Source of the DNA: an uncultured bacterium
Lineage (GTDB): Bacteria; Bipolaricaulota; Bipolaricaulia; UBA7950; UBA9294
Reading direction: 5' to 3'
NCBI GenBank assembly: GCA_903857865.1
Contig: CAIOGO010000006.1
Coordinates: forward strand, 1-64,000
Length of the DNA stretch: 64,000 bases
Under the pieces are notes generated by a model, which was not told where the DNA came from, did no database searches, and saw only the letters and a list, made by a program, of their open reading frames with translations. A program made the translations under genes and the position numbers. Positions 40,526-54,765 of the stretch are shown in pieces (the stretch's first letter is position 1; each line of letters opens with the position of its first letter).

Positions 40526-42793
40526 TCACGGCTTCTCGCCTAGTAGGCTCTTGATTCGCGGTGGGTCGAGCGGGTACCGCGTCGGGTTCCGGCCGGTGGC
40601 GTGGGCCACGGCGCGGGCGACGGCGGCGTGGGCCGCCATGACGGGAACCTCGCCGATCCCCTTCATCCCAAATGGGCCAGCCGGGAAAAGCGCTTCGACG
40701 AAGTCGACGGCGGCAGCGAGAGGCACGTCGCGAATCGTCGGCAGCCGGTACGTGGTGAGACCGTTCACGATCAGTCGTCCGTCCTTCTCCTCGATCGTCT
40801 CCATGAGCGCGAAGCCGATGCCTTGGGCGACGCCACCTTCGACCTGACCGGAGGCCAGTACCCTGTTGAGGATGCGCCCGGAGTCGTGCACGGCGACGTA
40901 GTCGACGACGTGCGCCTCGCCGGTATCCACGTTGACCTCGACCTCCGCGATGTGCGTCGCATACGCGTAGACAGGGTACACGTCGCCAAGGCCCGTGGCC
41001 GGGTCCCAACTCACAGGCTCGGTCGACGCCCAGCCCTCGACCGCGGGATCAAAGTTCTCGAGCCAGAAGAAGCGTGCGATCTCGGGAAGGCGCTGCGCGA
41101 TCTCCCGCTTCGCGATGCGGTGCGCCTTCGCGACGCGCTCGATCCGCTCGCGCAGTCTGCCCGCGGCATCAAGCACGGCGAGCGCGCTCATCATCGTGCC
41201 GCGCGACGCCACCGTGGGTCCGCTGTCCGGCACGCGCGACGTGTCGACGGGCGACAAGTGGATGCGGTCGATCGGCACGCCCAATCCTTCGGCGGCGACT
41301 TGGAGGACGGCCGTCGTCAACCCCTGTCCGATCTCGACTGTGCCGATCGCGACGGCGATCGAGCCATCCGGCTCGAGCTTGATCGTCGCGCCCGCCTTGT
41401 CGAGGAAGGGCGCCTTGCCGCCGAGACCGACTCCGTAAAGGACGCAAGCGACTCCCACGCCGCGCTTCGTTTCGCGGGACGCGCGGTTGTACGTCGCCGC
41501 GCGTTCGAGACGCGCCGTCCAGTCGGCGAGTTCGGCGGCGCGGTCGAGCGTCTCGGCGATGCCGACGCTGTCCCGCACCAGGTGGTCGGTCGACGTACGG
41601 TCGCCGGAGTGGAGCACGTTCCGTCGCCGGATCTCCACGCGATCGATGCCCAGGCGCTCCGCGACGAGGTCAATCTGCGACTCGTGCGGAAAGATGACCT
41701 GGGGGCTGCCGAATCCGCGAAACGCTCCGTTCGGGACGGTGTTCGTCGCCACCGAGCGAGCCACCACACGCACGTTGGGCACGCGGTACGGGCCAGCGGC
41801 GGTGACGAGGCTGCGCCAGAGGACGGCCGATGACAGCGTCTGGTACGCGCCTGCGTTCAGGACAATGTCCACGTCAATCGCCAGAAGAGTGCCGTCGGCG
41901 CGCGCCGCCGTGCGATAGAAGACGCGCGACGGATGTCGCTTGCTCGTGGTGAGGACGTCCTCCTCCCGATCGAGCACGAGCTTGACCGGCCGCCGTGTCG
42001 CCGAGGAGAGAAGCGCGGCCAGGGAACCGAGGAGCGACGGCACGTCCTCCTTGCCGCCGAACGCGCCGCCGGTTGCGGCCGCCACGACGCGCACCTTGGC
42101 GAGGGGCAGCCCGAGCACCTTGGCCACCGCGTTTTGCACGTAGAACGGGCACTGCATCGAGCCGTAGATCGCGATGGCTCCGAGCCCGTCGGGGACAGCG
42201 ATCATCCCCTGCGTTTCGAGGTAGGCGTGCTCCTGATATCCCGTCTCGTAGGTCCCTTCGACGACGACGTCCGCCACGGCGAACGTGCCGTCGACATCGC
42301 CCTTCACCAACACCATGCGGTTGAACAGGTTGCCGCCCTCGGCGGCCGAGGGAACCGCGACCTGCGGCGCGTCGGGTTCCAGAGCCGCGAGGGGACTCGC
42401 CACAAACGGAAGAGGCTCGTAGTCCACCCGCACGGCATCCACTGCGGCGCGGGCCGCGCGCCGCGTCTCCGCGGCCACGAGAGCCACCGGCTCCCCAATG
42501 TAGCGGACCACGTCGGCGGCAAGCGCCGGCTGATCGTCAACGATGACGTGGACGATGTTCTCGCCCGGCACATCGGCCGCCGTGAGGACGACGACCACGC
42601 CGGGCATGCTGCGGGCGGCTTCGGCGTGAATGCCGAGGATGCGCGCATGCGGATGGGGGCTGCGAACGACGGCCGCGTGGAGCATGCCGGGGAAGGCGAG
42701 GTCGTCGACGAACCTCGCCTCGCCCCGGACCTTGTCCACCGCATCGGGCCGAGCGATCGCGGTGCCGATGAGCGTCGCCGGCGCTTCGTTCAC
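40526..42793 (-). CDS. Xanthine dehydrogenase-family molybdopterin-binding subunit
   Basis: The 755-residue large subunit of a molybdenum hydroxylase has the a/b hammerhead domain (about 15-125: GEARFVDDLAFPGMLHAAVVRSPHPHA). The MoCo-binding domain has GGAFGGKE, PNGAFRGFGSPQ, GTVEIGQGLTT and the catalytic Glu loop GMKGIGEVPV. FAD and iron-sulfur subunits are not adjacent, as for E. coli XdhD-type proteins. GTG 42793 overlaps the preceding stop as TAGTG and follows GGGAGG. Context with YgeW-like transcarbamylases, carbamate kinase and HyuA points to purine or heterocycle hydroxylation. Confidence 0.88.
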   Translation of the reverse strand: MNEAPATLIGTAIARPDAVDKVRGEARFVDDLAFPGMLHAAVVRSPHPHARILGIHAEAARSMPGVVVVLTAADVPGENIVHVIVDDQPALAADVVRYIGEPVALVAAETRRAARAAVDAVRVDYEPLPFVASPLAALEPDAPQVAVPSAAEGGNLFNRMVLVKGDVDGTFAVADVVVEGTYETGYQEHAYLETQGMIAVPDGLGAIAIYGSMQCPFYVQNAVAKVLGLPLAKVRVVAAATGGAFGGKEDVPSLLGSLAALLSSATRRPVKLVLDREEDVLTTSKRHPSRVFYRTAARADGTLLAIDVDIVLNAGAYQTLSSAVLWRSLVTAAGPYRVPNVRVVARSVATNTVPNGAFRGFGSPQVIFPHESQIDLVAERLGIDRVEIRRRNVLHSGDRTSTDHLVRDSVGIAETLDRAAELADWTARLERAATYNRASRETKRGVGVACVLYGVGLGGKAPFLDKAGATIKLEPDGSIAVAIGTVEIGQGLTTAVLQVAAEGLGVPIDRIHLSPVDTSRVPDSGPTVASRGTMMSALAVLDAAGRLRERIERVAKAHRIAKREIAQRLPEIARFFWLENFDPAVEGWASTEPVSWDPATGLGDVYPVYAYATHIAEVEVNVDTGEAHVVDYVAVHDSGRILNRVLASGQVEGGVAQGIGFALMETIEEKDGRLIVNGLTTYRLPTIRDVPLAAAVDFVEALFPAGPFGMKGIGEVPVMAAHAAVARAVAHATGRNPTRYPLDPPRIKSLLGEKP

Positions 42794-43818
42794 TACAGAC
42801 GGCCTCCCATCGTCAAAGTAAGGACTGCTTTCTGTGTGTGCAGCCGGTTCTCGGCCTGATCGAGAATCCACGACAGCTTGTTGTCGCACACCTCGGGATC
42901 CGCCTCGTTGCCGCGGTCGACGGGCATGCACTGGAGCAGATGCCCCGGCGCGCCGAGCTTCTTCTGGCGCTCCGTCGAGTACTTCCACCCCGCGTACTTC
43001 TTCGCGATCTCCGCCTCTTTCTCTTTCCCGTTCTGATAGCGGCCCATGGTGAACCAGTTGCGCGGGAAGACGACAGTCGCTCCGTCGAGAGAGCGATCGA
43101 GATCGTGCGAGATCTCGAACGACCCGCCGGACGCCGCAGCGAGGTCGCGGCACTGCTTTGTCACGTTCGGGTCGAAGTCGTACTCGGGTGGATTCGCTAC
43201 GACCACATCCATCCCGTACATCGCCGAGATGAGCGCCGTGCCCTGCACCGAGCACAGGCCGCGGATCCACGGGGACCAGGCCCACATGATGACGATCTTC
43301 TTCCCCTTGACGCTCCCATCGAGCTTCTCGTGCATCGTGTAGATGTCGGTCAACGACTGACAGGGGTGGTTGATGTCCGACGCCATGTTGATGATCGGCA
43401 CGCGGCAGTGCTCGGCGAACTTCTGCATCACCTGATCGCCTTGGCCGTAGTACTGGACCGCGTCGTCGAGCAGGCGGATGCCAATCCCGTCGCAGTAGCG
43501 ATCCATCGCCTCGGCCGTGTCCTTGACGGTCTCCCCCGCGCCGGGCTTGTCTTCGAGCGACAGGCGCATCGTCTGCGGATTGATGAATTGCGAGTGCCCG
43601 CCGAGTTGCGTCATCGCCGTCTCGAACGACATCCGTGTGCGCGTCGAGCCGGCGAAGAACATCATCGCGAACGTCTTGTACTCGAGGTACGGATGCGGAT
43701 TGCGACTGTAGTACGCACCCTTCAACTGGTCGGTGACCTTCATCGCGATGTCGTACTCTTCCTTCGTCCAGTCGACTTCGCTGATGAGGTCGCGGCCGGC
43801 AAGATCGAACCAGCTCAT
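42793..43818 (-). CDS. YgeW-like knotted carbamoyltransferase, divergent paralogue
   Basis: The 341-residue protein belongs to the aspartate/ornithine carbamoyltransferase superfamily. The carbamoyl-phosphate loop is FAGSTRTRMSF and the second motif is HPCQSLTD. The segment GMDVVVANPPEYDFDPNV and the FPRNW motif align with YgeW. The normal HCLP motif that binds the second substrate reads QCMPVDRGNEAD, so the substrate probably differs from its neighbour. AAAGGAGG precedes ATG 43818. It follows the second paralogue by 61 bp; the pair may act on different substrates or form a hetero-oligomer (inference). Confidence 0.85.
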   Translation of the reverse strand: MSWFDLAGRDLISEVDWTKEEYDIAMKVTDQLKGAYYSRNPHPYLEYKTFAMMFFAGSTRTRMSFETAMTQLGGHSQFINPQTMRLSLEDKPGAGETVKDTAEAMDRYCDGIGIRLLDDAVQYYGQGDQVMQKFAEHCRVPIINMASDINHPCQSLTDIYTMHEKLDGSVKGKKIVIMWAWSPWIRGLCSVQGTALISAMYGMDVVVANPPEYDFDPNVTKQCRDLAAASGGSFEISHDLDRSLDGATVVFPRNWFTMGRYQNGKEKEAEIAKKYAGWKYSTERQKKLGAPGHLLQCMPVDRGNEADPEVCDNKLSWILDQAENRLHTQKAVLTLTMGGRL

Positions 43819-43879
43819 GAAACCTCCTTTGCCGGGGACGCAACCGCAGGGGCAGCCTCTGCGGTTGCGCCGGTCCTCC

Positions 43880-44917
43880 CTAGCCCATGAGGAGGGCCAT
43901 CATGCCCTTCTGGCCGTGCAGACGATTGGCCGCCTGCTCGACGATGACCGAGTTCGGGCCATCGATGACCTCGTCGGTGACCTCCATGTCGCGGTCGGCG
44001 GGCAAGCAGTGCATGTAGATCGCGTTGTTGGTCAGCGCCATCTTGTCGCTCGTCGTGATCCAGTGCTTGTTCGCCTCGAACGCTGCCTTCGCCTTGTCCG
44101 GATCCATCGCCGTCTTGCCGTCCGTCGGCTGCACGGTCCACGCCTTCGGGTAGACGACGTCGGCGCCCTTGAACGCCTGGTCCATGTCATTCACGATGCG
44201 GAACCCGCCGCCATGCCTCTTGGCGAGGTCCTTCGACGCCTGGAGGACCTTCGGGTCAAGATCGAAGCCCTTCGGGTGGGCGAGCGTCACATCCATCCCC
44301 ATCATCGACGCAGCGATGATGCAGCTCTGCGGCACCGCCAGCGGCTTCTCCACCGAGCCCGAGTACGCCCAGCTCATGACAAACTTCTTCCCCTGCAGGT
44401 CGTGACCCAGCTTCTCCTGCATGGTCATCACGTCGGCGAGGTCCTGGCACGGGTGGTACATGTCATCTTCCATGTTGATGACCGGCACCTTCGACCAGTG
44501 CGCAAACTCGCGGACGATCTGGTTCCCCTTGCCATACTTCCAGTCGGTGTACTTGCCGTAGATGCGGATGGCGATCGCGTCGCCCATCTCCGCGAGGACG
44601 CGGGCCACGTCGCTGATGCGTTCCGTCGAGTACGCCTTCTCGTCGCCCTTCAGAGCCGGAGTGTAGACGGCGCCGGGCTGCAGGAAGTGGGCGTGTCCGC
44701 CGAGCTGCGTCATCGCCGTCTCGAACGAATTTCGGGTGCGGAGCGACGTGTTGTAGAACATCATGTGCAGCGTCTGCCCGTCGAGGATCTTGTGCGGCTC
44801 GCGGCGAATAAACTTCCGCTTCAAGTCGTGGGCCGTGTCGAGCATGGCCTCCATTTCGTCGCGGCTGAACTCGAGCCAGGTGATGAAGTCCCGTCCTCTC
44901 AGTGTTGTGTTGGACAT
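43880..44917 (-). CDS. ygeW: YgeW-like knotted carbamoyltransferase
   Basis: The 345-residue protein has the carbamoyl-phosphate loop YNTSLRTRNSF (Leu replacing Thr of STRTR), HPCQDLAD and HCLPADRDMEV. The segment MSWAYSGSVEKPLAVPQ followed by GMDVTLAHPKGFDLDP is close to E. coli YgeW, an unassigned transcarbamylase whose gene lies in the anaerobic purine-degradation region. The expected reverse reaction would give carbamoyl phosphate, which the adjacent carbamate kinase turns into ATP. GAGGAGG precedes ATG 44917. Confidence 0.88.
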   Translation of the reverse strand: MSNTTLRGRDFITWLEFSRDEMEAMLDTAHDLKRKFIRREPHKILDGQTLHMMFYNTSLRTRNSFETAMTQLGGHAHFLQPGAVYTPALKGDEKAYSTERISDVARVLAEMGDAIAIRIYGKYTDWKYGKGNQIVREFAHWSKVPVINMEDDMYHPCQDLADVMTMQEKLGHDLQGKKFVMSWAYSGSVEKPLAVPQSCIIAASMMGMDVTLAHPKGFDLDPKVLQASKDLAKRHGGGFRIVNDMDQAFKGADVVYPKAWTVQPTDGKTAMDPDKAKAAFEANKHWITTSDKMALTNNAIYMHCLPADRDMEVTDEVIDGPNSVIVEQAANRLHGQKGMMALLMG

Positions 44918-44934
44918 CTTCCTCCTCGGTCTTT

Positions 44935-45891
44935 CTACTCCCGTGTGATCGTGGTGCCCGCTCTTCCGTCGAGCGCATCCGTCGCCTTGTCGAGCGACGT
45001 GATGATCGCCCTCTCTCCACCCGACTCGATGAAGCGAATGGCGGCACGAACCTTCGGCTCCATCGACCCCTTCGCAAAGTGCCCCTCGGCGTGGTACTTC
45101 TTCGCCTCGGCCACGGTGATGTGGGTCAGGCCTTTCTCCTGCGGCGTCTTGTAGTGGAGCTTCACCTGGCTGATATCGGTGAGGATCACGAAGATCGACG
45201 CGCCGACGTCGACGGCCAGCCGCTCCCCGGCCAGATCCTTGTCGATGACGGCATCGACGCCCCGCAATTCTCCGTTCTCGCGAAGGACGGGAATGCCGCC
45301 TCCGCCGGAGGCAATGACGATCGAACGCGCCGCGACCAACTGGCGGATCGCCTCCTTCTCGAAGATCTCGACCGGGTCGGGTGACGCGACCACGCGGCGC
45401 CAGCCGCGGCCCGCGTCTTCCTTCACGTCGTAGCCCTTCTCCGTCTTCAGCCGCTGGGCCTCTTCCGCGCTGTAGAACGGGCCGACCGGCTTCGTCGGAT
45501 GAGTGAAGGCTTCGTCCTTCGCATCGACGACGACCTGCGTCACGATCGTGGCCACCGGAATGTCGCCCCTCCCCTTCTTTGCAAGGAGGTTCGTCAAGGT
45601 CTGCTGGATCATGTAGCCGATGAGCCCCTGACTCTCGGCACCACAGACGTAGAGCGGCATCGGCGCCGCCACGTCCTTGCCGACCTCGTTCTGCAAGAGG
45701 ATGTTCCCCACCTGCGGCCCGTTGCCGTGAGTCACCACGACCTTGTACTTGCCCGACTCCACCATGTGCACCAGCTGCTCGCAGGTCACATGGACGTTCT
45801 TCATCTGCTCCTCGAACGTCCCGCGTTGGCCTGGCTGCAGAATCGCATTCCCGCCCAGCGCTACGACGACGAGCTTCTTCTCGACGGCCAT
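44935..45891 (-). CDS. arcC: Carbamate kinase
   Basis: The enzyme converts carbamoyl phosphate and ADP to ATP, ammonia and CO2 in catabolism. The 318-residue amino-acid-kinase-fold protein has VVALGGNAI, VVTHGNGPQVGN, VVASPDPVEI, IASGGGGIPV, VIDKDLAGERLA and GSMEPKVRAAIRF. ATG 45891 follows GGAAAGGTG. It lies 18 bp upstream of the ygeW-like gene, so substrate-level phosphorylation is coupled to the transcarbamylases, as for yqeA near ygeW in E. coli. Confidence 0.95.
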   Translation of the reverse strand: MAVEKKLVVVALGGNAILQPGQRGTFEEQMKNVHVTCEQLVHMVESGKYKVVVTHGNGPQVGNILLQNEVGKDVAAPMPLYVCGAESQGLIGYMIQQTLTNLLAKKGRGDIPVATIVTQVVVDAKDEAFTHPTKPVGPFYSAEEAQRLKTEKGYDVKEDAGRGWRRVVASPDPVEIFEKEAIRQLVAARSIVIASGGGGIPVLRENGELRGVDAVIDKDLAGERLAVDVGASIFVILTDISQVKLHYKTPQEKGLTHITVAEAKKYHAEGHFAKGSMEPKVRAAIRFIESGGERAIITSLDKATDALDGRAGTTITRE

Positions 45892-45940
45892 CCCATCACC
45901 TTTCCTGGATTCAACGTCGGACCGCCTCGACGGCGGCCCG

Positions 45941-46654
45941 CTAGGCTTCCCAGATCTCGCGCATGCGAGTCCAATGCTCGACCATCTTCGAGCGCGCCGT
46001 GGCCCCATCTTCCTCCTCCACCGCGTCGAGGATCTGACGATGGAGATCGACAACGTGCTGGAGATCGTTCACGTTCTTCAGGTAGTAGTGCCGCGTGAAT
46101 TCTCGGTACACCTTCTGATCCATCGTGTCGATGAGAGGCGCGAGCGCCGACGACACGAGCGGATTGCCGGCTGCGTCCGCCAGCGCGCGATGGAACGCTT
46201 TGTCGGCCTGGAAGTACTCCTCGAAGTCGTTCTTCGCGGCGAACTTCCCCATCCGCTTGAGCGCCTCCTTCAGCTTCGTCACGGATGTTTTGGCCTTGGC
46301 TGCCTTCACCGCCGCCAGCTCGGCGACCGCCGGCTCGAGCGCCTCGCGCGCCTCCATGACCTCGAGGCACCCGGCCTCGCTCTCGATCAGCCCAACGGCA
46401 TTTCGTTCGTCCAGCGGAGACGGCGCTCGCAGGACGTAGTTGCCGCTTCCCGGCCTCGACTCGATGATGGCCATCGCTTGGAGTGCCGACAGCGCCTCGC
46501 GAATCGACGGCCGACTCACGCCCATCTGCTCGGCGAGCTCGAATTCGGACGGAAGTCGTCCACCCACAGGGAAGTCGCCGCGCTGAATGGCCTCGACGAC
46601 TTGCTCCGCGGCAATCGCCGAAACCTTGCGCGGCCTCACCCTTTCAAACGGCAT
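45941..46654 (-). CDS. FadR-subfamily GntR transcription regulator
   Basis: The 237-residue regulator has an N-terminal winged helix (about 8-75: RLPSEFELAEQMGVSRPSIREAL) and a helical FCD ligand domain (about 95-225) whose metal-binding pattern Asp/His (DKAFHRALADAAGN, DLHRQILDA) is kept. It is the second gene of the minus-strand catabolic unit, after hyuA, with its own promoter. An 18-bp sequence over this promoter recurs at the hyuA/PLP-enzyme promoter and is the likely operator, so it probably controls itself and the pathway genes. The ligand is unknown. AGGAG precedes ATG 46654. Confidence 0.92.
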   Translation of the reverse strand: MPFERVRPRKVSAIAAEQVVEAIQRGDFPVGGRLPSEFELAEQMGVSRPSIREALSALQAMAIIESRPGSGNYVLRAPSPLDERNAVGLIESEAGCLEVMEAREALEPAVAELAAVKAAKAKTSVTKLKEALKRMGKFAAKNDFEEYFQADKAFHRALADAAGNPLVSSALAPLIDTMDQKVYREFTRHYYLKNVNDLQHVVDLHRQILDAVEEEDGATARSKMVEHWTRMREIWEA

Positions 46655-46677
46655 GGATCTCTCCTCTCGCTCAAGCA

Positions 46678-46716
46678 GTCTGACAGCATGATAGCTTGAC
46701 GGTTTCTAGCGAGCAA
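46678..46716 (-). promoter_or_regulatory. fadR-arcC-ygeW promoter with predicted operator
   Basis: The minus strand has TTGCTC (46716-46711), a 17-base spacer and TATCAT (46693-46688). GTCTGACAGCATGATAGC (plus strand, 46678-46695) overlaps the -10 and start and matches 16 of 18 bases at 48147-48164. It contains the short palindrome TGTCAGACA-like core typical of FCD-type operators. Confidence 0.65.
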
Positions 46717-48085
46717 CCGCCGACCCTGCGGTGCTTCCTCGCGCGAGGAACCGCCCGCGGCCGCCACGCGCACACGGCTCCCCGCCATCGACGATCGTCT
46801 CGCCTCGCGAGATCGTAGTCGTGACGCAGCCCGTCATCGCCCACGCCTCGTAGGGCGAGAAATCCGTCGCCATATGGAGTCGCGCCGCCTCCACGCGCCA
46901 CGCCACGCTGGGATCGAAGAGGACCAGATCGGCGTCCGCGCCCACGTCGATCGCGCCCTTCTTTGGATAGAGACCGTAGATCTTCGCCGGCCCTTCCGCC
47001 GCCAGCCGCACAATGTCGTGCACCGCCAGCCGCCCCGTCGCTACCCCCTCGGAGTAGAGGAGCGGAAGCAGCGTCTCCACTCCCGGCAGGCCGTAGGGCA
47101 GGTCGTCGAACGTCCCGCGCCACGCTTTCTGATCCCGCGTGAACGGGCAATGGTCGGTGGCCATGAGGTCGATGTCGTGGCTACGTAGACCGCCCCACAG
47201 CGCCGCGCGATCGGCGTCCTCGCGGAGCGGCGGCGACGCCGCGAACAGATGTCCGTCCTCGCGGTCGTAGACCTCGCGAGTCAAGAGCAGGTACTGCGGG
47301 CAGGTTTCCACGGTCACCGCGCAACGTTCGGCGCGCGCCGCCCGCACGGCGTCGAGTCCGATGCGCGAGCTGACGTGAACAATGTGAACTCGGCACACCG
47401 CGTCGTGCGCAAGGCGGGTGACAGTGGAAATCGCTGCCTGCTCGGCAAGATCGGGTCGCGCTGTCGCGAGCGTCCTCATTCTCGCCCGCTCGTCCGCGGT
47501 GAGCCGCGAGGCGATCGAGCGAATCAAGCCCTCATCCTCGGCGTGGACGACGGCCACGGCGTCGAGGAGAGAGATCTCGCGGAACGCAGCGCGGAGACCG
47601 TCCGATCCCGTGCGCCGCCCCGACGCTTCGTACGCCGTGTAGAACTTGAAGCTGGTCACGCCGCGAGCCGCCGCCTCGTGCAGCTCGCGTTCGCGTCCAG
47701 GACGCCATCCGACGACCTCGCCGTGCAGCGCGTAGTCGACGACCGCATCCTTGGCCTCGACCAGCCGTTCGTCCAGCGCCTGCACGATCGTTCGATCGGG
47801 CGAGCCCGCGGTAAAGTCGATGATCGTCGTCACGCCGCCGCAGGCCGCGGCGCGAGTCCCGGAAAGGAAGTCGTCGCTCGACCGCGTTCCCCCCACCGGA
47901 AGCGCCATGTGCGTGTGCGCGTCGATGAGTCCTGGGAACACAAGCAAGCCCTCAGCATCGATCTCTCGCCGTCCGGAGAGGCCGGGAGCGACCGCGGCGA
48001 TCGTCTCGCCCACGATGCCGACGTCGGCCGAGACCGTTGAGCTCGACGTGACGATGGTGCCACCGCGAATCACGAGATCCAGCAT
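46706..48085 (-). CDS. hyuA: Dihydropyrimidinase/hydantoinase-family cyclic amidohydrolase
   Basis: The 459-residue metal-dependent hydrolase opens cyclic amides such as hydantoins or dihydropyrimidines. Metal ligands are seen in DAHTHMALP, the carbamylated Lys region TSFKFYTAYEASG, HAEDEG, HIVHVSS and MATDHCPF. The C-terminus has PAKIYGLYPKKGAIDVGADADLVLFDP. GGAGGAAG precedes ATG 48085. It is the first gene of the minus-strand unit running through fadR, arcC, the two transcarbamylases and the molybdenum hydroxylase, and divergent from the PLP enzyme. The true substrate is not known. Confidence 0.9.
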   Translation of the reverse strand: MLDLVIRGGTIVTSSSTVSADVGIVGETIAAVAPGLSGRREIDAEGLLVFPGLIDAHTHMALPVGGTRSSDDFLSGTRAAACGGVTTIIDFTAGSPDRTIVQALDERLVEAKDAVVDYALHGEVVGWRPGRERELHEAAARGVTSFKFYTAYEASGRRTGSDGLRAAFREISLLDAVAVVHAEDEGLIRSIASRLTADERARMRTLATARPDLAEQAAISTVTRLAHDAVCRVHIVHVSSRIGLDAVRAARAERCAVTVETCPQYLLLTREVYDREDGHLFAASPPLREDADRAALWGGLRSHDIDLMATDHCPFTRDQKAWRGTFDDLPYGLPGVETLLPLLYSEGVATGRLAVHDIVRLAAEGPAKIYGLYPKKGAIDVGADADLVLFDPSVAWRVEAARLHMATDFSPYEAWAMTGCVTTTISRGETIVDGGEPCARGGRGRFLARGSTAGSAVAR

Positions 48086-48136
48086 GTCTCGCTTCCTCCG
48101 TCGCCGCGGCCTGCGCAGCACAGGCCACGCACCGTC

Positions 48137-48185
48137 TTGCGAACCGGTCTGGCTGCATGATAGCATTGCCTTTGCGAAGCCTCAA
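48137..48185. promoter_or_regulatory. Divergent hyuA / PLP-enzyme promoters with shared operator
   Basis: Minus strand: TTGAGG (48185-48180), 17 bases, TATCAT (48162-48157). Plus strand: TTGCGA (48137-48142), 18 bases, TAGCAT (48161-48166). The two -10 boxes overlap. GTCTGGCTGCATGATAGC at 48147-48164 is the second copy of the predicted FadR operator and covers both. Confidence 0.65.
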
Positions 48186-48222
48186 CGCGGTTTCCGCGCC
48201 GGGGCCTCCAGGAGGAAAAGCG

Positions 48223-49698
48223 ATGATTGACCTCGAACTGCATCCAGATCGTCTCCAACGAGCCGTGCGGCGGGCCCGCGAGCGGGGCATCATCGTCCCC
48301 ACCTTCGCCCAGATGAAGGATCCTCAGACGATCCCGACGCCCATCGTCGACCGGCTTGGCGATGTCGGTCTGTGGGACCTCCACCCGCTCAACCTCTTCC
48401 GCATCACATGGAAGAACGAGCCCGTGAAGACGGGCGGCCGGTTTGGCGACGTAAACATCTTCGAGTTCCCCTCCGAGCTGACCGGAGTGCCGGCCCGCAT
48501 CCTGGCTCTGGTCGGGAAGTGGTTCCCCACGGGCGCGCACAAGGTCGGCGCAACCTTCGGATGCCTCGTCCCGCGCCTCGTGACCGGCCAGTTCGACCCG
48601 ACGTACCACAAGGCCGTGTGGCCCTCCACCGGCAACTACTGCCGCGGCGGCGCGTTCAACTCCAACCTCCTCGGCTGCGAGTCCATCGCCATCCTTCCCG
48701 AAGGCATGTCCCGCGAGCGCTTCGAGTGGCTGGCGAAGATCGCCGGCGAGGTCATCGCCACGCCGGGCTCCGAGTCGAACGTCTGGGAGATCTTCCAGAA
48801 GTGCAAGGAGCTCGAGGCCGCGCGGTCGAACATCATGATCTTCAACCAGTTCGACGAACCGGGGAACCACCTCTGGCACTACGACGTCACGGGCCACGCC
48901 ATGGCCGAAGTGCTGACCAACGAGCTGGGCGGCGGGACCTACGCCGGCGTCGTCTTGACCTCCGGATCCTCCGGCACCATGGGGTGCGGCGACTTCCTCA
49001 AGGAAGAGGCCCCGGACAGCAAGCTCGTCGTCTCCGAGGCGCTCCAGTGCCCGACGCTCCTCGAGAACGGCTTCGGCGCTCACCGGATCGAGGGCATCGG
49101 CGACAAACACGTCCCCTGGATCCACAACGTCCGCAACACCGACATGGTCGTCGCCATCGACGACGCCGATCCGATGGCTCTCATCCGCCTGTTCAACGAC
49201 CCGGCGGGGCGCGCGTTCCTCACGAAGCAGGGAGTCCCCGCCGACGTCGTTGACCGCCTCGACCTGCTCGGCATTTCGGGCGTCGCCAACCTGCTCACGG
49301 CGATCAAGTTCGCCAAGTTCTACAACCTCGGAAGCGATGACATCGTCCTCACCGTTCTGACCGACTCGATGGAACTCTACCGGACGCGGCTCGCCGAGCT
49401 CGACGAGGCGCACGGCGCCTACACCGAACGACAGGCCGCCATCGACTTCGAGGCCCGTCTGCACGGGCAGAAGACGGACAACGTCCTCGAACTCGGGACC
49501 CGCGAACGCAAGCGCATTCACAACCTAAAGTACTTCACGTGGGTCGAGCAGATGGGCCACTCGGTCGACGAGCTGAACGCGCAGTGGGATGACTTCCCGG
49601 GGTACTGGGACCGCATCCACGACTCGGTCGGCGCAATCGACGAACGCATCGAAGCGTTCAACGACGAGGTCGGAATCCTGAAGGAGCTGGCGCGGTGA
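48223..49698 (+). CDS. PLP-dependent fold-type II enzyme of unknown substrate
   Basis: The 491-residue protein resembles the tryptophan-synthase-beta/cysteine-synthase fold. The likely PLP lysine is in PTGAHKVGATFGCL (about residue 108) and the cofactor-binding loop is STGNYCRGGAFNSN. The glycine loop TSGSSGTMGCGDF and the C-terminal part follow. It does not carry the KAFKxLG-type lysine motif of diaminopropionate ammonia-lyase (YgeX), the PLP enzyme of the comparable E. coli cluster. AGGAGG precedes ATG 48223. A promoter shared with hyuA ties it to the same pathway. A lyase or deaminase role is inference. Confidence 0.85.
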   Translation: MIDLELHPDRLQRAVRRARERGIIVPTFAQMKDPQTIPTPIVDRLGDVGLWDLHPLNLFRITWKNEPVKTGGRFGDVNIFEFPSELTGVPARILALVGKWFPTGAHKVGATFGCLVPRLVTGQFDPTYHKAVWPSTGNYCRGGAFNSNLLGCESIAILPEGMSRERFEWLAKIAGEVIATPGSESNVWEIFQKCKELEAARSNIMIFNQFDEPGNHLWHYDVTGHAMAEVLTNELGGGTYAGVVLTSGSSGTMGCGDFLKEEAPDSKLVVSEALQCPTLLENGFGAHRIEGIGDKHVPWIHNVRNTDMVVAIDDADPMALIRLFNDPAGRAFLTKQGVPADVVDRLDLLGISGVANLLTAIKFAKFYNLGSDDIVLTVLTDSMELYRTRLAELDEAHGAYTERQAAIDFEARLHGQKTDNVLELGTRERKRIHNLKYFTWVEQMGHSVDELNAQWDDFPGYWDRIHDSVGAIDERIEAFNDEVGILKELAR

Positions 49699-50801
49699 CG
49701 ACGCCCGCCGTCCCGGGCGGCGCGCGCCGCACCGACGCGCGCCGCGAGGTGTTCGCCGAGGAGTTGTACAGCGCGGTTACGCGACAATTGCCCCTGTCTC
49801 CCGACGGTCCCCGCACGCCGCTGAACGTGGCCGGAGGCAGCCCACCCCGCCCAGTGATTGTGTCGGGTGGGGGTGGGAGCCCACCCCGCACCATCATCGT
49901 GGCAGGCGGGGTGGGGGCGGGAAAGACGGAGGCCGGTCTGCACCTGGCGCAACGCCTTCGCGGCGCCGGCGTCGCGGTCGGCGGCATCCTCGCGCCGCGG
50001 CTCGTCGAACGCGGCGAGACCGTGGGCTACAACGTCCTCGACGTCTCGACCGGAGAGGACGTCGCCTTCGCCCGAGCCGATCCGCCCGGGCAAGCCGTCG
50101 GCCGATTCTTCGTGCGACCCGCCGGCCTCGCGTTTGCCGAGCGCGCGCTGCAGCACAGCATCGAGCGCGCCGACGTTGTCTTCATCGACGAAGTCGGCCG
50201 CTGGGAGCTGGCCGGCGGCGGCCACGCGCCGGCCTTGATGGACCTCCTGCAATCGCGCGTCCTTCCCGTCCTGTTCGTGCGCACGGAGCTCGTTCAGGCC
50301 GTGGCCGACCGCTTCGCGTTGCAGGCGGCGAAGGTCCTACGCTTGGCGGAATTGGTGCAGCGAGAGCCCGCGGGCGGACGGCGCGCATTCTGGTCGATCG
50401 TCGACTCCATGCCGTACCCGCTCTTCCTCACCGTCGCTGCAGACGGGTTCCCGCAGTCGCGTCCGATGAGCCTCGTCGAGCGCGACGATCACACTCTGTG
50501 GTTCCCCACCTCCCGCGCCTCGCGCAAGATCGGCCAGATTCGGGCCCACGCGCGGGTCACCGTCTTGTTCGTCGACACCGACCGCTACAACTACGCCTCG
50601 TTCCACGGGATCGCCTCTCTGGAGCCCGACAACGAGAGGACACGCCGACTGTGGCGTGACGACTGGCGCGACGACTGGCCCGCCGGACCCGACGACCCGG
50701 ACTACGCGCTCATCCGCGTCGACGGCGCCCGCGGCTTCTTCCTGCATGGAACCACCGGCGAAGCGGGCGAGATCGACTTGCGCGCCGACCACGATACGTA
50801 G
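49695..50801 (+). CDS. THEP1-type nucleoside-triphosphatase fused to a pyridoxamine-phosphate-oxidase-like flavin domain
   Basis: The 368-residue protein joins an NTPase_1/THEP1 domain (about 60-225) with Walker A GGVGAGKT and Walker B-like DVVFIDEVGRWEL to a PNPOx-like split-barrel domain (about 230-350: FLTVAADGFPQSRPMSLV, RVTVLFVDTD, NYASFHGIA). The strand before the P-loop is duplicated: GSPPRPVIVSGGG is followed by GSPPRTIIVAGGV. The start GTG overlaps the PLP-enzyme stop (GTGA), so the two are translationally coupled. The combination is not one I recognise; function unknown. Confidence 0.8.
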   Translation: MTTPAVPGGARRTDARREVFAEELYSAVTRQLPLSPDGPRTPLNVAGGSPPRPVIVSGGGGSPPRTIIVAGGVGAGKTEAGLHLAQRLRGAGVAVGGILAPRLVERGETVGYNVLDVSTGEDVAFARADPPGQAVGRFFVRPAGLAFAERALQHSIERADVVFIDEVGRWELAGGGHAPALMDLLQSRVLPVLFVRTELVQAVADRFALQAAKVLRLAELVQREPAGGRRAFWSIVDSMPYPLFLTVAADGFPQSRPMSLVERDDHTLWFPTSRASRKIGQIRAHARVTVLFVDTDRYNYASFHGIASLEPDNERTRRLWRDDWRDDWPAGPDDPDYALIRVDGARGFFLHGTTGEAGEIDLRADHDT

Positions 50802-52746: not shown

Positions 52747-54744
52747 TCACTCGACCGGCCAAAGTTTCACCGTGTAGTCCTCCGACCCCGAGGCGAGAAG
52801 CTTCCCGTCGGGTGAGAACGTGACGGCATTGACCGCCCAGGTATGGCCTGCGAGGGTGCGCAGTTCCTGTCCCGTGGCGACGTCCCACAACTTGATCGTC
52901 TTGTCCCACGACCCCGAGGCGAGGACCGTCCCGTCGGGTGAGAAAGCGACGGTATGGACGAAATTGGCGTGACCGGCGAGGGTGCGCAACTCCTGGCCCG
53001 TGGCGACCTCCCATAGCTTGACCGTCTTGTCCCACGACCCCGAGGCGAGGATCGTCCCGTCGGGCGAGAAGGCAACAGAGAAGACCCGGTCGGTATGGCT
53101 CGAGAGGGTGCGCAGCTCCTGCCCCGTGGCGACGTCCCAGAGCTTGACCGTCTTGTCCTGCGACCCCGAAGCGAGAGTCTTCCCGTCGGGGGAGAAGGCG
53201 ACAGAGTTGACATCGCCGGTATGTCCTGCGAGGGTGCGCAACTCTTGTCCCGTGGCGGCGTCCCATAGCTTGATCGTCTTGTCATACGACCCCGAAACGA
53301 GCAGCTTCCCGTCGGGGGAGAAGGCAACGGAGTGGACCCAACTGGCGTGACCTGCGAGGGTGCGCAGCTTCTGTCCCGTGGCGACGTCCCACAACTCGAT
53401 CGTCATCCACGACCCCGAGGCGAGTGTCTTCCCGTCGGGGGAAAAGACAACGGAGGCGACAGCGTCGGCATGGCCTGCGAGGGTGCGCAGCTCCGCTCCT
53501 GTGGCGGCAACACGCAGGTTGACCGTCTTGTCCCACGCCCCCGAGGCGAGGAGCGTCCCGTCAGGCGAGAAGGCAACGGAGGTGACAGGACCAGTATGCC
53601 CTGCGAGCGTGCGCAAGATCTGCCCGGTGGCGACGTCCCACAGCTTCACCGTGTTGTCCACCGACCCCGATGCGAGGAGCGTCCCGTCGGGAGAGAAGGC
53701 AACGGAGAGGACCAAGTTGGTATGGCCGGCGAGGGTACGCAGCTCCCGTCCCGTGGCGACGTCCCACAGCTTGACCGTCTCGTCCTCCGACCCCGATGCG
53801 AGGAGCCTCCCATCGGGTGAGAAGGCGATCGAGTAGACGGTGCTGGCATGGCGTGCGAGCGTGCGCGCCAGTTGTCCTGTGGCGACGTCCCACAATCTGA
53901 TCGTCTTGTCCACCGACCCAGACGCGAGGAGCTTCCCATCGGCTGAGAAGGCGACGGAGACGACCAAGTCGGTATGGCCTGTGAGGCTGCGCTCCAGCCG
54001 TCCCGTGACGACGTCCCACTGCTTCACCGTCTTGTCATACGATCCCGAGGCGAGGAGCGTCCCGTCAGGCGAAAAGGCAATGGAGCTGACCTCGGCAGAA
54101 TGGTCCGCAAGAGTGCGCAAGACCTGCCCGGTGGCGACGTCCCACAGCCTCACCGTATTGTCCCAAGACCCCGAGGCGAGGAGCTTGCCATTGGGTGAGA
54201 AGGCGACGGACACGACCAAGTCAGTATGGCCTACGTGGGTTCGCACCAGCTGCCCTGTTGTGACATCCCAGAGTATCACGGTATTGTCAAACGACCCCGA
54301 TGCGAGAAGCGTCCCGTCAGGCGAGAAGGCGACGGAGGTAACCCAGCTGGTATGGCCTTCAAACGTGCGAACAACCGTCCAGTGCTCTGTCTCCACAAGA
54401 TGCACCGCGCTCGCTGCGCCGGCGACAGCTACGTAGCGGCCATCCGGGGAGAAAGCCACCGAGTAGACCATCCCGAACCCGAACGTGCGCACAGGTGGCA
54501 GCAACTCGGGCGAGCCGGACTGGGCTGCGCCGTCTCTTGCGATAGTCGAAGGGGTGAGCTGAATGGCCTGGCCGAGAGGCAGGGCTGCAGGAGCAGACTC
54601 ATGCCCCGTTTGACCACTCGCGGCCGTGGATGCCGGAGCTCCGGTCCGTCGCGAATCTCCGGAGCCAGTACATCCAGTCACCAGAAGCGCAACAATGACG
54701 CCTAGTACGGTGAACAGAGTCGCTTCTCGTCGTAGACTCATCAT
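52747..54744 (-). CDS. WD40-repeat lipoprotein with 14 repeats
   Basis: The 665-residue protein has a lipoprotein signal (hydrophobic 10-25, lipobox LVTGC) and a linker of about 60 residues. Fourteen WD40 repeats of 42 residues then follow, each like GHTxxVxSVAFSPDGTLLASGS followed by DKTVKLWDVATGQ. Fourteen repeats would form two seven-bladed propellers. Repeats 6-14 are nearly identical, giving a 126-bp DNA tandem repeat; repeat 9 lacks one residue and repeat 8 has lost its WD. AAGGAG precedes ATG 54744. It is probably an envelope scaffold protein; partners unknown. Confidence 0.88.
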   Translation of the reverse strand: MMSLRREATLFTVLGVIVALLVTGCTGSGDSRRTGAPASTAASGQTGHESAPAALPLGQAIQLTPSTIARDGAAQSGSPELLPPVRTFGFGMVYSVAFSPDGRYVAVAGAASAVHLVETEHWTVVRTFEGHTSWVTSVAFSPDGTLLASGSFDNTVILWDVTTGQLVRTHVGHTDLVVSVAFSPNGKLLASGSWDNTVRLWDVATGQVLRTLADHSAEVSSIAFSPDGTLLASGSYDKTVKQWDVVTGRLERSLTGHTDLVVSVAFSADGKLLASGSVDKTIRLWDVATGQLARTLARHASTVYSIAFSPDGRLLASGSEDETVKLWDVATGRELRTLAGHTNLVLSVAFSPDGTLLASGSVDNTVKLWDVATGQILRTLAGHTGPVTSVAFSPDGTLLASGAWDKTVNLRVAATGAELRTLAGHADAVASVVFSPDGKTLASGSWMTIELWDVATGQKLRTLAGHASWVHSVAFSPDGKLLVSGSYDKTIKLWDAATGQELRTLAGHTGDVNSVAFSPDGKTLASGSQDKTVKLWDVATGQELRTLSSHTDRVFSVAFSPDGTILASGSWDKTVKLWEVATGQELRTLAGHANFVHTVAFSPDGTVLASGSWDKTIKLWDVATGQELRTLAGHTWAVNAVTFSPDGKLLASGSEDYTVKLWPVE

Positions 54745-54765
54745 CGCTCCTTCGCTTGGATGCAA

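Follow-up and report, generated by a model that had tools for sequence, protein, structure and literature searches.

We analysed a 64,000-nucleotide stretch of DNA (the window) from contig CAIOGO010000006.1 of a Candidatus Bipolaricaulota assembly (G000; 2.24 Mb, 91% complete), in which positions 40526-50801 hold a cluster of eight genes including two transcarbamylases, CT1 and CT2. This contig is C6 of G000, and other contigs of the genome are cited as C5, C14, C20 and C22. We consider it fairly probable that the cluster provides the lower half of a fermentation of urate (purine) by the reductive route, in which CT2 and CT1 would phosphorolyse both ureido groups of the intermediate. The gene content of the cluster, its co-conservation among relatives and an in-place exchange of the two transcarbamylase genes are the evidence observed here at the level of sequence.

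All eight genes were found with intact frames (Table 1), confirming the observation on which an earlier note on this DNA was built. The genes for HyuA, the FadR-type regulator, carbamate kinase (CK), CT2, CT1 and the molybdenum (Mo) hydroxylase subunit follow one another in this order on the minus strand with tight, operon-like spacing, while the pyridoxal phosphate (PLP) enzyme and the THEP1-flavin fusion are encoded divergently. The frame of the PLP gene opens at 48157, and the start used in relatives (MIDL) lies at 48223.

Table 1. Genes and putative regulatory elements of the cluster, by position in the window
Feature	Position	Strand	Basis or remark
Mo-hydroxylase large subunit, XdhA/PucD-like	40526..42799	-	Pfam MoCoBD_1/2, Ald_Xan_dh_C; start approximate
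CT1, transcarbamylase of separate clade	42793..43818	-	Motifs, tree, predicted structure
CT2, transcarbamylase of separate clade near N-acetylornithine transcarbamylase	43880..44917	-	NF003384 match, tree
Carbamate kinase (CK)	44935..45891	-	TIGR00746, 436 bits over cut-off 358
FadR-type GntR/FCD regulator	45941..46654	-	PF00392 and PF07729; kept in cluster across relatives
Second, weaker copy of the putative element	46675..46698		Upstream of fadR
HyuA, D-hydantoinase/dihydropyrimidinase	46706..48085	-	TIGR02033, 402.5 over 393.25
Promoter/operator-like element, CTGTCAGACAG-type palindrome and TAGCATT	48144..48167		Between hyuA and PLP gene
PLP enzyme (fold-type II), CysK/CBS-like core with N- and C-terminal extensions	48223..49698	+	PF00291 (PALP)
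THEP1-type NTPase fused to PNPOx-like/F420-type flavin domain	49695..50801	+	PF03266, PF16242/PF01243

Among 100 genomes of the class, CT1 was detected in 66, the PLP enzyme in 68, SsnA in 65 and a threonine-synthase-like enzyme (TS18) in 64. All four were present in 19 of 36 near-complete genomes picked by hand, and none of the four in nine; since related genomes are not independent, the Fisher values for these counts are descriptive only. The gene order PLP / FadR-CK-CT2-CT1 recurs across families. Because CT1 is this widespread and this order recurs, the cluster is not a chance neighbourhood, and the co-conservation in relatives on which the earlier note had made its reading depend was indeed found. 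The positions of HyuA, the Mo subunit, XdhC and the THEP1/flavin genes vary across relatives, and THEP1 and the flavin domain are separate genes in other families of the class (L055, L061, L064, L070).

Identity of CT1 and CT2

In the profile libraries, CT2 passed the N-acetylornithine carbamoyltransferase model NF003384 (327 over 288), and CT1 passed no model. Both fell far below the YgeW model (112 bits for CT1 and 172 for CT2, cut-off 453) and the putrescine model TIGR04384 (190 and 212, respectively, against a cut-off of 500). In the maximum-likelihood tree, CT1 formed its own clade (100/99, 16 rows), as did CT2 (99/91, 15 rows), the latter nearest to N-acetylornithine transcarbamylase (AOTCase), and both fell within a group holding AOTCase and YgeW (95/99); the long branches of AOTCase and of Escherichia coli ornithine transcarbamylase (OTC) make the exact placement unsure. 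A third type of enzyme, CT3, grouped with E. coli YgeW (99/97), from which three rows (G022, G078 and G098) branched apart. The OTC (DVWVSMG) and aspartate transcarbamylase (ATC; RIQRER) of G000 itself were located elsewhere in the tree. In the tree, CT1 and CT2 thus group with the knotted-type enzymes as two separate, new clades, and the label 'YgeW-like' given to them earlier is loose with respect to the scores.

Motifs were interpreted as described for transcarbamylases (PMC4581275). The OTC motif DxxxSMG was absent from 16/16 CT1 and 15/15 CT2 sequences, the ATC motif RxQxER was absent from both, and so was the Gln of the putrescine transcarbamylase (PTCase) motif FxQxSxRT, at which CT1 has FFAGSTRT and CT2 has FYNTSLRT. 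Candidate assignments of CT1 and CT2 as OTC, ATC or PTCase were ruled out by these motifs, the tree and the separate OTC and ATC of G000; the possibility raised by the earlier note against its own reading, that these are ordinary ornithine or putrescine enzymes, fails on the same grounds. Both proteins keep SxRT and HPxQ, with the carbamoyl-phosphate motifs STRTR and HPCQ retained in CT1. Where HxLP is expected, CT1 has xCMP or HVMP, and it has an invariant Arg253 where knotted enzymes have the substrate-binding Lys. The proline-rich loop insertion is present in both, the loop of CT1 lacking most of the prolines.

The AlphaFold model of CT1 (pLDDT 93.6) gave AOTCase as the best structural match (Z 42.7, 322 residues, 1.7 A), followed by the putative Enterococcus faecalis transcarbamoylase 2YFK (Z 40.4) and OTCs (Z about 38-40). 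The Xanthomonas AOTCase (3KZC), which has a proline-rich-type loop, is nearest to CT2 in the tree and to CT1 in fold. In contrast, its residues Glu92, Asn185 and Lys302 and the 80's-loop Trp are not kept: in the alignment, CT2 has Thr, Gln and Glu without the Trp, and positions 92 and 302 are Gly and Glu in CT1. The loci retrieved showed no arginine-biosynthesis context. E. coli YgeW (YTCase, PDB 3Q98) likewise has a knotted-type loop, is catabolic and adjoins CK; unlike YgeW, CT1 and CT2 are approximately 55 residues shorter, without the extended 240's loop and the C-terminal helices. Ureidoglycine transcarbamylase (UGTCase), the known ATP-yielding transcarbamylase of purine breakdown, belongs to the ATCase (ATC) branch, whereas CT1 and CT2 lie in the other, knotted branch; UGTCase was not among the four transcarbamylases of G000.

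Urate-pathway genes and the exchange with YgeY and CT3

The genes ygeX, ygeY, ygfK and ssnA had been reported as absent from the window. This holds for the window, and neither ygeX (best 23 bits) nor ygeY (no match at E<=1e-40 in this 91% complete genome) was found in G000; ygfK and ssnA, in contrast, are present on C20, where SsnA, YgfK and TS18 are encoded in a row. SsnA passed NF005540 (446.5 over 444; 420.8 with the sibling model TIGR03314, below its cut-off of 455.5), and YgfK passed TIGR03315 (883 bits over 835). Approximately 10 kb from SsnA/YgfK, an XdhD-like large subunit (43%) is encoded together with a split Fe-S part (33%) and a YgfM-like FAD subunit (28%); the top NCBIfam match of this XdhD-like enzyme, the fused model TIGR03313, reached 719.5 against a cut-off of 1101.9. 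C20 terminates just past TS18, and C5 opens with a [2Fe-2S] subunit, MocA and a FAD subunit, the order that follows TS18 in G004 and G020. These C5 genes (G000:C5:119-1961) encode candidate partners of the Mo-hydroxylase large subunit of the cluster, whose top NCBIfam match was pucD (567 bits, below the cut-off of 784).

In two other genomes of the class the halves are joined. G093 carries HyuA-PLP together with TS18-YgfK-SsnA on a single contig. In G029, CK-CT2-CT1 has PLP-TS18-SsnA and an F420-type reductase as neighbours, an arrangement resembling the Chloroflexota variant in PMC12507026. The cluster of G075 includes genes for adenine deaminase and a xanthine-phosphoribosyltransferase-like protein. 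These joined halves and adjoining purine genes tie the cluster to purines. True YgeX was detected in 10 of the 100 class genomes (320-519 bits, all below the cut-off of 532) and true YgeY in seven, in all of which it adjoins CT3.

The best evidence for the role of CT1 and CT2 is a natural swap. In G030 (single contig, 96% complete), CK-YgeY-CT3 is found where congeners have CK-CT2-CT1, and CT3 is followed by a decayed CT2-CT1 remnant. In this remnant, CT2 residues 83-113 (68% to the CT2 of a congener) are fused to CT1 from residue 217, and a frameshift precedes CT1 259-341 (85-88%; CT1 217-341 overall 66-88%). G033 shows the same swap with no remnant. Five near-complete genomes have the pathway without CT1, and three of them (G030, G033 and G086) have YgeY and CT3. 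In G022, G078 and G098, a CT3-like enzyme takes the place of CT2 next to CT1, and in G092 CT2, YgeY, CT3 and CT1 occur together, as expected of an intermediate. On these patterns we infer that CT1 and CT2 do the work of YgeW and YgeY; the simplest reading is that CT2 would do the job of CT3/YgeW and CT1 that of YgeY. The second transcarbamylase, earlier regarded as a duplicate of YgeW, more probably stands in for the YgeY hydrolase.

Proposed route and alternatives

The reductive urate pathway was worked out biochemically only in 2025, in E. coli, where the 2,3-diureidopropionate made by HyuA loses one ureido group by phosphorolysis (YgeW) and the second by hydrolysis (YgeY), and YgeX forms pyruvate (PMC12507026); which ureido group YgeW cleaves, and thus the order of cleavage, is disputed (PMC12990295). 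By homology to that system, urate would be turned by the XdhD-like enzyme, YgfK and SsnA into yanthine and then into ureidomethyl-hydantoin, which HyuA would open to 2,3-diureidopropionate. What CT1, CT2 and the PLP enzyme act on, and how much ATP is gained, we infer from sequence only: CT2 and CT1 would each phosphorolyse one ureido group, giving 2,3-diaminopropionate and two carbamoyl phosphates, from which CK could form up to two ATP, compared with one in the usual route. The PLP enzyme, alone or with TS18, would then take the place of YgeX and remove both amino groups to give pyruvate, and the FadR-type protein would regulate the operon.

HyuA, CK, YgfK, SsnA, an XdhD/YgfM-like pair and the logic of the steps from diureidopropionate to pyruvate are common to G000 and the E. 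coli cluster (ygeWXY-hyuA-yqeA, ygfK-ssnA-ygfM-xdhD; PMC12507026). Unlike in E. coli, the genes lie at two loci, CT2 and CT1 stand for YgeW and YgeY, a CysK-like PLP enzyme and/or TS18 stands for YgeX, and the regulator is of the FadR type instead of the sigma54 regulator YgeV. In the uricolytic cluster of Clostridioides difficile (UacX, UacY; PMC12507026), the YgeW and YgfK steps were taken over by unrelated enzymes; UacY exchanges phosphorolysis for hydrolysis, with loss of ATP, whereas here hydrolysis appears to be replaced by phosphorolysis, with gain of ATP. The earlier reading is partly supported. A purine/urate-type cluster, with a heterocycle opened by HyuA and carbamoyl units recovered as ATP, is supported; the absence of ygfK and ssnA does not extend to the genome, where both lie on another contig, so that the cluster corresponds to the lower half of the known pathway and is no wholly different route.

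The PLP enzyme belongs to a family of at least 576 homologues in GTDB genomes, flagged by this analysis, for which no function is assigned in the libraries searched. Its nearest sequences are cysteine synthases, and its AlphaFold model best matched a CysK-type fold (Z 32; Foldseek/VIA). It gave no match to the YgeX model TIGR03528 at E<=0.001; YgeX was not among the top rows of the fold search, which proves nothing. The CysK/CBS-like core fits beta-elimination and suggests an aminoacrylate intermediate, as expected of a diaminopropionate lyase, but does not point to a substrate. Within the best 80 PLP loci, TS18 was found within approximately 10 kb in 45 and a CT3-type enzyme in 22. In G005, where PLP and TS18 are both missing, YgeX is encoded downstream of an XDH gene similar to that of the cluster; the contig ends suggest that this stretch may join the CK-CT2-CT1 cluster of G005. 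Homologues on Bosea/Rhizobium plasmids (42%) have RidA, TauE and M20 nearby, a setting not decisive for the substrate.

Several observations weigh against this route. The replacement is not exclusive, because G011, G013, G021 and G092 hold CT1 together with YgeY/CT3; in G013, CT2 is moreover split over two distant places, which could be an assembly fault. The chemistry of CT1 could differ, because the Leu of HxLP is a Met in this protein and the substrate-binding Lys an Arg, and in G000 the urate half and the cluster lie on different contigs. An ArgE/DapE-type M20 hydrolase adjoins CK in G005, G009, G016, G022 and G098, and could hydrolyse a ureido group. The PLP step is the weakest part of the account, because YgeX is also present in G022 and G043 and because the PLP gene is found by itself, with no evident partner genes, in Thorarchaeota, gut Clostridia and Chloroflexota (L178, L181, L172, L208, L148). 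No telling neighbours were seen for the stand-alone genes of Thorarchaeota and Clostridia, and only some of those genomes have a full YgfK; since the gene occurs alone in genomes without YgfK (e.g. Thorarchaeota), its role is wider. G000 may have no threonine synthase other than TS18.

Alternatively, CT1 and CT2 may act as one enzyme, either a hetero-oligomer or a catalytic subunit with a helper, that phosphorolyses one ureido group while an unlinked hydrolase takes the other, so that one ATP is gained. The tandem, co-conserved genes, the M20 hydrolase beside CK and the atypical motif residues of CT1 are in line with this alternative, which we nevertheless regard as unlikely: in G022, G078 and G098 CT1 is accompanied by CT3 and CT2 is missing, so that CT2 is not needed by CT1, both proteins keep SxRT and HPxQ, in G030 YgeY came in with CT3 at the very site where both CT2 and CT1 decayed, and G078 has CT3 and CT1 with no true YgeY. 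It is less likely still that the cluster degrades another cyclic ureide, such as hydantoin or dihydropyrimidine derivatives or allantoin, with the urate genes forming a separate system. HyuA does match a general D-hydantoinase/dihydropyrimidinase model, it is absent from the CT cluster of many relatives, and C14 of G000 carries another HyuA-like gene near a DHODH-family gene and two SsnA-like genes; the near all-or-none occurrence of CT1, PLP, SsnA and TS18, the physical joining of the halves in G093 and G029, the purine genes of G075 and the swap with YgeY and the YgeW-branch CT3 argue for urate. It is very improbable that CT1 and CT2 serve an arginine/agmatine-type ATP pathway as ordinary transcarbamylases for ornithine, acetylornithine or putrescine, even with the NF003384 match of CT2 and the adjacent CK, given the missing signature residues, the separate clades and the OTC and ATC that G000 has of its own; no deiminase gene was noted in the cluster.

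A parallel to the proposed phosphorolysis of both ureido groups was found in seven Chloroflexota-type loci (L157, L170, L174, L180, L197, L215 and L221), where an enzyme of the ATCase branch with the HSLP motif, the mark of UGTCase (PMC4581275), is encoded directly before CT3. Most of these loci also hold CK, TS18 and the PLP gene, and the one HSLP enzyme tested passed the ATCase model without having RxQxER. FadR precedes the HSLP-CT3 pair in L157 and L197, with no YgeY nearby; L180 has YgeY as well. These pairs suggest that a second transcarbamylase may have been recruited twice. We propose tentatively, with slightly less than even confidence, that CT1 is a new transcarbamylase that phosphorolyses the ureido group hydrolysed by YgeY, for a yield of two ATP, and that uricolysis with two transcarbamylases has at least two origins, one in the knotted branch (Bipolaricaulota) and one in the ATCase/UGTCase branch (Chloroflexota). 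Were CT1 and CT2 to act on one ureido group apiece, the order of cleavage in this lineage could be resolved enzyme by enzyme, and a new transcarbamylase activity would be recognized; the route would conserve more energy than that of E. coli, and purine fermentation could be assigned to an uncultured phylum.

Putative regulatory element and further gene content

The CTGTCAGACAG-type element is present 5' of the PLP gene in 13 relatives across the class, and the copy upstream of fadR scores 22.2, whereas the top sites of unrelated loci reach 5 to 17. On this sequence pattern, the element is likely the FadR operator/promoter. The FadR-operator-like motif was also considered as a link between the two loci and rejected: among 12 loci scanned, namely the SsnA/YgfK loci of relatives and the C5, C14 and C20 stretches of G000, none was clearly above this chance range (top score 16.8, in G004). 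The only strong site was that of G093, which is the PLP promoter itself, the PLP gene lying on the same stretch.

The clusters of G005, G022 and G098, in which the M20 hydrolase adjoins CK, also hold a peptide-type ABC transporter, which hints at the uptake of an N-acyl or ureido compound. A second azaheterocycle-type cluster on C14 (L098:30-13727) encodes a HyuA-like protein, two SsnA-like amidohydrolases, a DHODH-family (UacX/PydA-like) protein and two aldehyde:ferredoxin oxidoreductases; several genes of this type lie inside the CT cluster itself in G015 and G092 (L101, L097). In total, the 2.2 Mb of G000 encode five Mo-hydroxylase large subunits and five FAD subunits (C6, C14 twice, C20 and C22). 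Finally, window positions 52750-54765 encode a 672-aa WD40-like protein with many near-identical repeats, probably a recently expanded beta-propeller.

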